Source: an uncultured Pelagibacteraceae bacterium (lineage in GTDB: Bacteria > Pseudomonadota > Alphaproteobacteria > Pelagibacterales > Pelagibacteraceae). Taken from it: DNA of 64,000 nucleotides. The stretch covers positions 85,845 to 149,844 of the forward strand of contig CACAZL010000001.1 in assembly GCA_902536925.1 (NCBI GenBank). The letters run 5' to 3'. The translations under genes and the position numbers were made by a program. How positions within the stretch are numbered: the first letter of the stretch is position 1; the number at the start of each line of letters is the position of its first letter. Positions 24,456-61,511 of this stretch are shown piece by piece. Below the pieces are notes generated by a model, which saw only the letters and a list, made by a program, of their open reading frames with translations, did no database searches and had not been told where the DNA came from.

Positions 24456-26051
24456 TTTGCAGAGTTTTTTTATGAAATTATCATCAAATTTATTATGATA
24501 ATACTGTAAGAAAGATTTATAAGAAATATCTTGGTAAAAAATTTTGTCGTTATCACATATTAAATTTAAGCTAGATTGATTTGAAAAGTAATAGCTAAAT
24601 GGATATTTTCTTTTTTCTTTTAGATAAAAATTACAATAAGCAAAATAGATTATGAGAAAGCTTTGGATAAGTATAATAAATTTTTCTTTTTGAAAATTCT
24701 TCAAATAGTATGAGACTGCCAATATATATGGTACAACCACAAAAGTTTCATAATAATAGAGAAAACCTCTTAAATTCATTATAAAAATTATAGAGATAAT
24801 TCCAGAAACAATTAAAATTTTTTTTTGGTATTTATTTTTTCTATTTTTTGAATTTAATAAAGAATCATATTTGAGAGAAAAAATTAAAATACCAAGCAAA
24901 ATTAAGATTTTGATGTTGTTATAGTCTAATTTACTAAAGGCAATAAGAAATAAGTTATAAAAATAATACAAACCTACCTTAACATTATCATAAAGATCAG
25001 GGTAGTCACTCACATGAAATTCAACCATATAATGAAAAGGGTTTATCAATCGAAGTAGAATATAATAATTTAGTTTTATCAAACCAATTGAATCAAAAAA
25101 AACAGTGAAAAGTATGGATGAGCCATATCCAATAAAGTAAAGGGATAAAAAAACTATAGGCAACTTTAATTTTTTAAAATTAAAATTATTACTTATAAAA
25201 AAAAATATTAAGATAAATAAATTAAATAATAGAATTAAAATTAAATCAAAATATCTTATTTTATCGAATCTTTCATAACTTTGAAGTTTAATTTGAAGAA
25301 TTGTGTAAGTAATTATTACGACTATATAGATGAGGAGCAAAAATAGATCATTATTTTTAGTAAATTTTGTAATTTTATCATTTTTAATATCAAAATTAAT
25401 TTTAATTAAAATAAAAAGTATCTGAAAAAAAAATAAAAATACTATTTGTATTTTTGTTAACATTGCAATTCCAAAAATAAAACCACTTAATAAAATATAA
25501 ATAGTATTTCGAGACTCAAAAAATTTAATTTGAAAGATTAGAGAAACCAAAAAAAATATTATTGATAAGTTTTCGTTTCTTAAATAAAAAAATGACTCAG
25601 TAAACCATCCAGAAACTATTAGAATACCACAACTTAGAATTGCTAATTTTTCGCTAAGCTTAATTTTTATTAATGTTTTGTATAAAAAAAAAATTAAAAA
25701 ATAATTTATAAAAACGTTTATTATTCTACAAAAGAAGTATAAATTTTGAATGTCTTCATTTGGATCTTTAGAATTTATTAAATCGTTTATATTGCTAATA
25801 ATATTAGGATTAATTATTGAAAACGCTTTGATAAAAAATCCATAAATAACAAATGTAGTATATCCTGGATGATCTCTATATTCTTGCTCAATTCCGGATG
25901 AAATTAATAAACTATTATAAATAATCATAATATCTTGATCTAAAACTGCACTCCAATGAAAAAATTGAGATTGATAAATACTTATCAATAAAAATATTAA
26001 TAGAGGTAATAAAAGTAATAAATATAAATGTTTTGTTTTTGGAACCAGCAT
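24450..26051 (-). CDS. Polytopic membrane protein, possible GT-C/ArnT-PMT-like glycosyltransferase
   Basis: 533 aa with many TM segments and an early extracytoplasmic Asp/Glu/His-containing loop (LDQDIMIIYNSLLISSGIEQEYRDHPGYTTF); sits beside GT2 genes. Confidence 0.5.
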   Translation of the reverse strand: MLVPKTKHLYLLLLLPLLIFLLISIYQSQFFHWSAVLDQDIMIIYNSLLISSGIEQEYRDHPGYTTFVIYGFFIKAFSIINPNIISNINDLINSKDPNEDIQNLYFFCRIINVFINYFLIFFLYKTLIKIKLSEKLAILSCGILIVSGWFTESFFYLRNENLSIIFFLVSLIFQIKFFESRNTIYILLSGFIFGIAMLTKIQIVFLFFFQILFILIKINFDIKNDKITKFTKNNDLFLLLIYIVVIITYTILQIKLQSYERFDKIRYFDLILILLFNLFILIFFFISNNFNFKKLKLPIVFLSLYFIGYGSSILFTVFFDSIGLIKLNYYILLRLINPFHYMVEFHVSDYPDLYDNVKVGLYYFYNLFLIAFSKLDYNNIKILILLGILIFSLKYDSLLNSKNRKNKYQKKILIVSGIISIIFIMNLRGFLYYYETFVVVPYILAVSYYLKNFQKEKFIILIQSFLIIYFAYCNFYLKEKRKYPFSYYFSNQSSLNLICDNDKIFYQDISYKSFLQYYHNKFDDNFIKKLCKN

Positions 26052-55148: not shown

Positions 55149-56416
55149 TTTGATAAAACTTTTTCCATATCTTTTTTTGATAAATTAAAATTATTTTCAA
55201 TCCATTTCATTTCTAAATTTTTTAATTTTTGACCCAATTCCCTTCCCTCCTTTAATCCATAATCATTTATTAATAACTGAGCTTTTATTGGAAATTCTGG
55301 TTTATCTAATTTTTCAAAGTAAGTTTTTAATTCTGAAAGTTTTTTACTTTGTTTAAAATATAACAAATTGAAATCAATTAAATCGATTGTGCTAGATTTA
55401 CCCTCATAATAAAATATTTTTTGTAAATCTTTCTTGTTAAAAATTTTAGTACTATCTTTACTTAGCGAATTATTTTTTAGAAAATTAATTTTATCTTTTA
55501 ACTCATTGGGTAAATTATATTTATACACAAAATAGTCAGAATTGTCGGTTTCATCGATTACAAGAAAAGCAATGACAAAATTCAAACTTTTAATTTTTAA
55601 TATCTTTTCTTGTGGTTTTGATAACTTGCTCAATTTTTTAAAATTTTTTAGTTGAGGGAAAATTAATGAAAATAATTCACAAGAGGTTTTATTTTTAAAT
55701 AACTTTAAAAAGTTATCCAATTTGAGAATTTTTTTTAATTCATTGAATTGTCTTTCTTTTGATATTTTTCCTAAACCCTCTATATTTTTTTTAATGATTT
55801 TTATTATATTAATTTCATGATCGATTTTGCTATATTCAGTATAAAATCTTAAATATCTAATAATTCTTAAATAATCTTCTTTTATTCTAATTTCTGGATC
55901 ACCTATAAATTTAATTATTCCAACATTTAAATCTTTATGACCAGAATTTGGATCATATAAATTCCCGTCTAAATCTGAATATATTGAATTTATTGAAAAA
56001 TCTCTCCTTAATGAATCTTCCTTCCAATTAGTTGTATATTCTACGACAGCATGCCTTCCATCTGTTTTTACATCTTTTCTTAATGTTGTAATTTCAAAAT
56101 TTTGATCATCAATCACTGCTGTGATTGTGCCATGTTCAATTCCCGTTTCAAAAAACTTTATTTGGTTTTTATCTAAACATTGCCTAACCTGATCAGGAGT
56201 TAAATTAGTTGCAAGGTCGATATCATCTGTTTTTTCATCATTTAAAATTTTTCTTACACAACCACCAACATATCTAATCTCGCTGGTTTCATTGTGGTTA
56301 TTTATTGCTCCAAATATTTTATTTACTCCATTATTATTTTTTAAATCTAGAAATTTGAGATCTTTATCGCTTGAAATTTTTTTGTTTTGAAAAATTTTTT
56401 TAATTAAAGCTTTCAT
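55145..56416 (-). CDS. CCA tRNA nucleotidyltransferase / poly(A) polymerase family
   Basis: [68 protein letters not shown]. Confidence 0.93.
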
Positions 56417-59783: not shown

Positions 59784-60356
59784 ATGAAAAAAATTATTGC
59801 TGGGGTTGATGAAGTTGGAAGAGGGAGCCTTGTAGGACCAGTTTATGCAGCTGCCGTTATATTAAATAAAGAAATTAATAGAAAAATTCTTAAAGATTCA
59901 AAAAAACTTAACAAAATTCAGAGGGAAACTTTAGCTAAATATATAAAAAAAAATTCAGTTTGGGCGTTAGGATCTGCATCAATAAAGGAAATTGAAAAAA
60001 TTAATATTTTAAATGCTAGCCTACTTTCAATGAAAAGAGCAATTAAGAAACTCAAATTGAAACCTAAAAAAATTTTAATAGATGGTAACAAACCACTAGA
60101 CTTAAAAAATTATGTAATTAAAACTATTGTAAAAGGTGATGAAAAAATTCCTGAAATTTCAGCCGCATCGATTATTGCTAAAGTTGAAAGAGATAAGCTA
60201 ATGAAAAAGATGTCTTTTTCTTTTAAAAAATACGGCTGGGATAATAATGCAGGTTATGGAACTAAGGATCATATTAAAGCTATTAAAAAATTTGGAGTGA
60301 CTAGATTTCATAGAAAAACCTTCCAACCAATACACAAGATATTGAGTCTTAAATAA
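59784..60356 (+). CDS. rnhB: Ribonuclease HII
   Basis: IAGVDEVGRGSLVGPVYAAAVIL, LKDSKKLN, AASIIAKVERDKLM, YGWDNNAGYGTKDH. Confidence 0.96.
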   Translation: MKKIIAGVDEVGRGSLVGPVYAAAVILNKEINRKILKDSKKLNKIQRETLAKYIKKNSVWALGSASIKEIEKINILNASLLSMKRAIKKLKLKPKKILIDGNKPLDLKNYVIKTIVKGDEKIPEISAASIIAKVERDKLMKKMSFSFKKYGWDNNAGYGTKDHIKAIKKFGVTRFHRKTFQPIHKILSLK

Positions 60357-60395
60357 TAATCATAACAATTATCAATCAATAAATTCAATCACAGG

Positions 60396-60424
60396 TTGAC
60401 GTAGACTCCTGACTGGAGTCTAAT
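60396..60424 (+). promoter_or_regulatory. Predicted ccrM promoter with two GANTC sites in an inverted repeat between -35 and -10
   Basis: TTGACG (60396-60401), 17-nt spacer, TCTAAT (60419-60424); inverted repeat TAGACTCC-TGACT-GGAGTCTA (60402-60422) with GACTC at 60404 and GAGTC at 60416. Confidence 0.7.
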
Positions 60425-60437
60425 TCAAAAATATAAA

Positions 60438-61511
60438 ATGATCATTTCAGACATAAAAAATAAAATTATTAATGGAGATAGTATTAAGGAATTAAAAAAA
60501 ATTCCTGCTGAAAGTTTTGATCTGATATTTGCAGATCCACCTTACAACCTTCAACTGAAAAAAGAATTAAGCCGACCTGATAAATCTAAAGTCAATGCTG
60601 TAGACGATGCGTGGGATAAATTTGATAGTTTTAAAAGTTATGATGAGTTCTCAGTTCAATGGCTTAAAGAATGTAAAAGAATTTTAAAAAAAAATGGATC
60701 TATATGGGTCATAGGAAGTTATCATAATATTTTTAGAGTTGGTTCAAAAATGCAAGATTTAGGTTTTTGGATACTAAATGATGTGATTTGGAACAAAAAT
60801 AACCCTATGCCAAATTTTAGAGGAACACGTTTTACGAATGCGCACGAAACACTTATATGGGCATCAAAAAGTGAAGGCTCAAAATATACTTTTAATTATC
60901 AATCACTTAAATGTTTAAACGATGATCTACAGATGAGATCTACATGGAATTTACCTATATGTAATGGAAAAGAAAGACTTAAAAATAATGGTAATAAAGT
61001 TCACTCAACGCAAAAGCCGGAGTCATTATTGCACAGAATTATATTAGCATCGTCTAATAAAGGCGATTTAATATTGGACCCGTTTCTCGGTACGGGAACA
61101 ACTGCTGTAGTTTCAAAAAAGTTAGGTAGAAATTATTTTGGGATAGAAAAAGAAAAAAACTATTTTGAAGCTGCAAGTAAAAGAATTAAAAATACAAAAA
61201 TTATAGAAGATGGATATTTAGATACTATAAAAAATAATAGATCCAAACCAAGAGTGCCATTTGGATCTTTGGTTGAATTAGGAATTATTAAACCTGGTAC
61301 TGAAATTTTTGATCAAAAAAAACAAATCAATGCGAAAATTATGATTGATGGTAGTATAAAATATCGGAAATCAGAAGGATCAATTCATAAAGTTGCTGCA
61401 CAAATATTAGGTGCTGAGAGCTGTAACGGTTGGACTTTTTGGTATTATAAATCAGGTAATTCACTCAAACCAATTGATGATTTGAGACAAAGACTAAGGC
61501 CAACTACTTAA
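60438..61511 (+). CDS. ccrM: Cell-cycle regulated DNA adenine methyltransferase CcrM (GANTC) with C-terminal RAMA-like domain
   Basis: FADPPYNLQL (DPPY), LDPFLGTGTTAVVSKKLGRNYFGIEKE (FxGxG), C-terminal KAKIMIDGSIKYRKSEGSIHKVAAQILGAESCNGWTFWYY. Confidence 0.93.
   Translation: MIISDIKNKIINGDSIKELKKIPAESFDLIFADPPYNLQLKKELSRPDKSKVNAVDDAWDKFDSFKSYDEFSVQWLKECKRILKKNGSIWVIGSYHNIFRVGSKMQDLGFWILNDVIWNKNNPMPNFRGTRFTNAHETLIWASKSEGSKYTFNYQSLKCLNDDLQMRSTWNLPICNGKERLKNNGNKVHSTQKPESLLHRIILASSNKGDLILDPFLGTGTTAVVSKKLGRNYFGIEKEKNYFEAASKRIKNTKIIEDGYLDTIKNNRSKPRVPFGSLVELGIIKPGTEIFDQKKQINAKIMIDGSIKYRKSEGSIHKVAAQILGAESCNGWTFWYYKSGNSLKPIDDLRQRLRPTT

Follow-up and report, generated by a model that had tools for sequence, protein, structure and literature searches.

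For promoters with methylated GANTC the established reader is GcrA, and ccrM of Caulobacter carries its GANTC sites in the transcribed leader. The ccrM promoter of Caulobacter crescentus is the closest described counterpart of the locus analysed here, as it concerns the same gene, has GANTC at the promoter and is held to respond to methylation (PMC3973325; PMC2217572). Transcription of Caulobacter ccrM is most probably methylation-responsive (PMC3973325), and in the model for this species methylation shuts down CcrM production (PMC2217572). Caulobacter ccrM is activated by CtrA, whereas Pelagibacter is reported to be without CtrA (PMC2877005; PMC7987155). The GcrA/CcrM-dependent sigma70 promoters of mipZ, podJ, ftsN and ctrA (P1) likewise have GANTC at or between -35 and -10. 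In their study of the predicted GcrA core regulon, Adhikari et al. (2021) name ccrM as a likely core target across alphaproteobacterial orders, describe GcrA regulation of ccrM as apparently lost in Caulobacterales, find few high-probability GcrA targets in “Cand. P. ubique” and use a score that explicitly disregards where in the promoter a site lies (PMC7987155). In “Cand. Pelagibacter” NP1, GANTC is 99.86% fully methylated, with lower levels close to the origin (PMC9516812).

Here we analyse the ccrM promoter in a 64,000-nucleotide stretch of DNA (the window) of an uncultured Pelagibacteraceae bacterium of the SAR11 clade. The locus offers a precise promoter geometry through which the GANTC methylation system of the Alphaproteobacteria, among them the highly abundant SAR11, could regulate its own enzyme. 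Earlier literature has already noted GANTC sites ahead of ccrM. In a literature search that reached a minority of the subscription papers, nothing was found on the fixed geometry, on its retention in genomes without GcrA or on RF01784 as the ccrM promoter; the available part of Adhikari et al. likewise does not describe the first two (PMC7987155).

Architecture of the ccrM locus

Re-reading of the window confirmed to the base the -35, spacer, -10 and start codon of ccrM and both GANTC positions of an earlier, sequence-only reading (Table 1). The ATG lies at 60438, 13 nt past the -10, and the -10 hexamer begins with the last two bases of site 2. Here the GANTC sites lie in the spacer and -10, in contrast to the leader sites of Caulobacter. 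A generic sigma70 scan did not list this promoter because it requires an A at the second -10 position. No terminator-like sites were found within 60300-60500, and a terminator of rnhB was rejected on this ground; the GAGTC at the end of rnhB was left out of the promoter because it is coding.

Table 1. Features of the rnhB-ccrM region in window coordinates.
Feature	Position	Strand	Basis
rnhB (ribonuclease HII), upstream neighbour	59784-60356	+	NCBIfam ribonuclease HII, E 1.6e-68
GAGTC at rnhB end	60344-60348	+	kept in close relatives; coding
Rfam RF01784 “bablM sRNA” match, probably ccrM promoter	60373-60441	+	cmscan 46.4 bits, gathering score 38
TTCAATC block upstream of -35	60384-60390	+	near-invariant in SAR11 family f1; contains left arm of RF01784 stem 1
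Putative -35 hexamer TTGACG	60396-60401	+	TTGAC invariant across aligned SAR11 loci; core of class-wide layout
Spacer, 17 nt	60402-60418	+	sequence
Inverted repeat TAGACTCC (60402-60409)/GGAGTCTA (60415-60422), loop TGACT	60402-60422	+	sequence
GANTC site 1 (GACTC), within spacer	60404-60408	+	sequence; SAR11 column analysis
GANTC site 2 (GAGTC), overlapping -10	60416-60420	+	sequence; SAR11 column analysis
Putative -10 hexamer TCTAAT, 17 nt from -35	60419-60424	+	alignment columns 23-28 near-invariant
Predicted transcription start	60430-60432	+	from -10 position (6-8 nt past -10); leader ~6-8 nt
ccrM, GANTC adenine methyltransferase, 357 aa	60438-61511	+	6pbd, NCBIfam and Pfam matches

The downstream gene had been taken for a CcrM-type GANTC methyltransferase, and this assignment holds. 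The product is similar from end to end to the crystallised Caulobacter CcrM (6pbd; full-length, aligned over 9-354, E 4e-137), and its N6_N4_Mtase and C-terminal RAMA domains exceed the Pfam cut-offs. It covers the NCBIfam CcrM model NF050803 over 3-349 of 350 and scores 577 bits, short of an equivalog cut-off of 830 bits that we read as set near the Caulobacter protein. It is therefore named a CcrM homologue here and not a certified equivalog.

Conservation within Pelagibacterales

Column analysis of SAR11 family f1 comprised 110 loci, 78 of them distinct, which amount to ~23 (22.7) effective sequences after weighting. The -10 GANTC (site 2) was unbroken in 110/110 loci (22.7/22.7 effective) and constant as GAGTC with constant flanks, and the spacer GANTC (site 1) was unbroken in ~90% of the weighted sequences (~20.4/22.7 effective). 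The offset between the two sites floats, being 8 or 9 in SAR11 and 6-10 in other Alphaproteobacteria. In family f2, whose CcrM is only ~60% identical, the ccrM promoter reads TTGACC-TC-GATTC-TATTTT-GAATC.

The sequence-only reading had emphasised an inverted repeat in the spacer and -10 and offered a dimeric repressor as one of its possible readers. The repeat is present in the window, but comparison of the rnhB-ccrM region among relatives showed that the GANTC pair is kept in SAR11 while the arms are not. Weighted pairing beyond GANTC in family f1 was 68/39/5% at the outer positions, 39/24% at the inner ones and 45% at the middle N. Since complementarity is not kept outside GANTC, the repeat arises for the most part from the presence of two palindromic sites, and with unconserved arms and varying site spacing a dimer-binding site is not supported.

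Chance proximity of the two sites, a concern raised with the original observation, is excluded because GANTC is depleted about two-fold both in the window (86 observed vs 174 expected) and in a complete relative, G012 (1642 vs 3711). Across 61 Pelagibacterales genomes, TTGACN{2,4}GANTCN{5,8}GANTC occurs in 48 places, 44 of them at the start of ccrM, so that the layout is found about once per genome. G012 has six intergenic GANTC pairs within 16 bp, and only the pair at ccrM has the TTGAC-17-TCTAnT core; with just six such pairs, a broader class of double-GANTC promoters in this genome was dropped. An apparent enrichment of TTGA two bases ahead of GANTC in promoters proved trivial, because GA belongs to the motif.

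Upstream of the -35, TTCAATC-nnn-RGTTGAC is near-invariant in SAR11 f1 and exclusive to ccrM. The TTCAATC block had 28 matches across the 61 genomes and never more than one in a genome; all were at ccrM and none in family f2, a distribution that does not support a regulatory site common to several genes. The block and the -35 together make an imperfect dyad, TCAATC-nnn-GGTTGA.

Distribution across Alphaproteobacteria

The layout extends well beyond SAR11. Among 85 ccrM upstream regions from outside Pelagibacterales (mostly one per family), 35 contained TTGAC-n1..5-GANTC-n4..8-GANTC, compared with an expectation of 0.015 matches from Markov resampling and none for the reversed pattern. The 59 other permutations of TTGAC gave at most 2 of 85 each, except CTTGA with 11, which overlaps TTGA. 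The spacing between TTGAC and the second GANTC has a sharp peak at 14 nt (34/85), and the exact geometry TTGAC-n14-GANTC-A-nnn-T was present in 34/85 regions. In 27/33 loci a -10-like CAnnnT at 17-nt spacing starts with the last C of site 2, and 31/33 have a third GANTC at most 30 nt upstream; these two counts refer to 33 and not 35 loci because a stricter gene finder was used for them. Relative to this arrangement the -10 of SAR11 f1 is displaced by one base, yielding TCTAAT. The CAnnnT -10 of most Alphaproteobacteria is weak. The earlier suggestion that a compact switch of this kind is a peculiarity of streamlined genomes is thus unsupported, because the same layout is common in other, often large, alphaproteobacterial genomes.

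Presence of GcrA

The genome from which the window comes has an intact gcrA gene (G000:C6:31505-31933; L303:606-1094, + strand; 114.5 bits vs a cut-off of 26.9), and GcrA was found in 56/61 of the Pelagibacterales genomes searched. We had expected genomes with ccrM and without GcrA to have dropped the layout. This expectation failed, as the layout was commoner there (9/12 GcrA-less vs 26/74 GcrA-bearing genomes; Fisher p 0.012, a value that ignores phylogenetic relatedness). A second profile, built from ten GcrA proteins, found no GcrA in any of the 12 GcrA-less genomes and recovered both positive controls. One order (that of G123) is largely devoid of GcrA (54/56 genomes) and has kept CcrM in 54/56 genomes. 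Both sites were present at 15/30 of its ccrM loci and the -10 site at 21/30. With the layout kept where GcrA is missing, GcrA cannot be the sole reason for it, and a different reader, possibly RNA polymerase, must be considered.

The bablM family (RF01784)

The same DNA has been filed as a structured RNA. The window and nine relatives match RF01784, the window above the gathering threshold, and this family goes back to Meyer et al. (2009), who placed it among less well-supported candidate RNAs, located it between rnhB and a DNA methylase, noted that its stem 1 is without any mutations, reported the rnhB-ccrM gene order for “Cand. P. ubique” as well and used the words promoter and ccrM nowhere in their main text (PMC2704228). 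In stem 1 the TTCAATC block pairs with the -35 region, stem 2 consists of the two GANTC sites (spacer and part of the -10), and neither stem reaches the predicted transcription start, which is further downstream. The pairing of stem 2 follows from the palindromic GANTC sites and involves no covariation. Its only informative pairs, N:N', were compared with shuffles in four groups and paired no better than shuffled in any of them: 46 vs 46.0 in SAR11 f1, 6 vs 6.0 in SAR11 f2, 11 vs 12.3 in the other Alphaproteobacteria and 6 vs 6.0 in the GcrA-less order. Three of these groups are uninformative on covariation because their second N is constant; the other Alphaproteobacteria are the group able to show it and showed none. 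Hairpin stability amounted to -11.7 kcal/mol in the window and only -2.7 kcal/mol in G012. As the pairing is no better than shuffled and the stems precede the predicted start, RF01784 is more probably ccrM promoter DNA than RNA. If the family indeed describes a DNA promoter, RF01784 annotations carried to SAR11 genomes would be wrong.

A possible autoregulatory promoter and its alternatives

We propose that the element serves ccrM as its sigma70 core promoter and senses methylation state in an autoregulatory manner, that full methylation probably shuts it and that GcrA is an optional helper; taken jointly, this proposal has in our judgement about an even chance of being right. CcrM would place its own methyl marks at the positions of RNA polymerase binding and DNA opening. 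Passage of the replication fork would leave both GANTC sites hemimethylated and the promoter more active, and the CcrM then made would re-methylate the chromosome including its own promoter sites, thereby lowering its own synthesis. The -10 site would be the essential one and the spacer site additive. We infer that promoter activity depends on methylation, that the feedback is negative and that RNA polymerase itself could sense the marks; GcrA, where present as in this genome, may strengthen or alter the response, although the layout does not require it. The methylation-sensing switch put forward in the sequence-only reading is the part of it that survives, being the most economical explanation of two target sites that sit in functional positions and are conserved beyond close relatives; its dimeric-repressor and streamlined-genome components do not. 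On the other side, the Caulobacter GcrA-dependent promoters (mipZ, podJ, ftsN) need methylation, which is the opposite sign, and the TTCAATC block stays unexplained by methylation feedback. In SAR11, site 2 and its flanks are more fixed than methylation alone requires, so a sequence-specific protein may bind there as well. On a broader scale, we tentatively suggest, as a speculative extension, that many alphaproteobacterial ccrM genes share an ancient promoter whose -10 GANTC methylation is read directly by RNA polymerase-sigma70, acting as a homeostat of genome methylation without a dedicated reader, that GcrA is an added layer in some lineages and that the bablM “sRNA” is this promoter.

The main rival is activation by GcrA together with sigma70, in which GcrA reads the methylated sites and aids opening, which would make ccrM a member of the GcrA/CcrM regulon, expressed more strongly as methylation and GcrA level rise. 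The intact GcrA of this genome, with a DNA-binding domain matching that of Caulobacter, and the wide occurrence of the protein in Pelagibacterales agree with such a role, as do the GANTC sites at and between -35 and -10 of the window ccrM. GANTC between -10 and -35 marks Caulobacter promoters activated at 40-60 min (PMC4287350), GcrA works on sigma domain 2 and open-complex formation (PMC7403470), which would suit the weak CAnnnT -10 of other Alphaproteobacteria, and ccrM is a predicted core GcrA target (PMC7987155). However, the layout does not track GcrA across genomes and is at least as frequent without it. In the GcrA of this clade the sigma-interacting motif has drifted (CKYMEGNP in place of CKWPIGDP), and neither window site (GGAGTCT and AGACTCC) fits YGAKTCG, the extended motif cited for GcrA, in either orientation. 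This mismatch, two sites at fixed positions and the persistence of the layout without GcrA set the locus apart from the promoters of mipZ, podJ, ftsN and ctrA (P1), and we consider activation by GcrA conceivable but rather improbable.

Another sequence-specific transcription factor might instead recognise the GANTC region or TTCAATC, with methylation merely tuning its binding. The near-invariant, ccrM-only TTCAATC-nnn-RGTTGAC of SAR11 f1 and the constant flanks of site 2 would suit such a factor. It would have to be a regulator dedicated to one target, because the block occurs at no other gene in 61 genomes; moreover, family f2 lacks the block and the spacing of the two sites varies, which makes this explanation unlikely. 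A cis-acting structured RNA in the 5' leader of ccrM, as proposed for bablM, has in its favour the above-threshold matches in the window and nine relatives and the stable window hairpin. It is rejected here as highly improbable for want of covariation, and it sits poorly with the lost flank pairing, with the weak hairpin of G012, with stems made of the -35, the spacer and part of the -10 upstream of the predicted start, and with the reservations of the original authors (PMC2704228). Methylation feedback acting on the promoter DNA is the reading that we prefer.

Other GANTC sites in the genome

Further GANTC sites at possible control regions were noted elsewhere in the same genome. On contig C1 (~55376-55398, L324) three GANTC sites, spaced 11-12 bp, immediately precede the promoter of an operon for a UmuD-like S24 peptidase; the triplet is conserved in G012 and adjoins a DnaA-box-like TTATCCACA and a LexA-like GAAC-n7-GAAC. 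In a divergent promoter between a UbiA-like gene and a small membrane-protein gene (C2 ~24980-25029, L328; TTGTAA-17-CATAAT), also conserved in G012, the C of a GATTC begins the -10, which is the ccrM geometry of most Alphaproteobacteria. GANTC at conserved offsets was seen upstream of ftsK-like, guaB-like and recA genes (C4 ~51060, C1 ~44450 and ~52640). Overall, 14 ortholog pairs had GANTC at a conserved offset, and permutation gave an expectation of 1.1; some of the 14 lie in coding or tRNA sequence.
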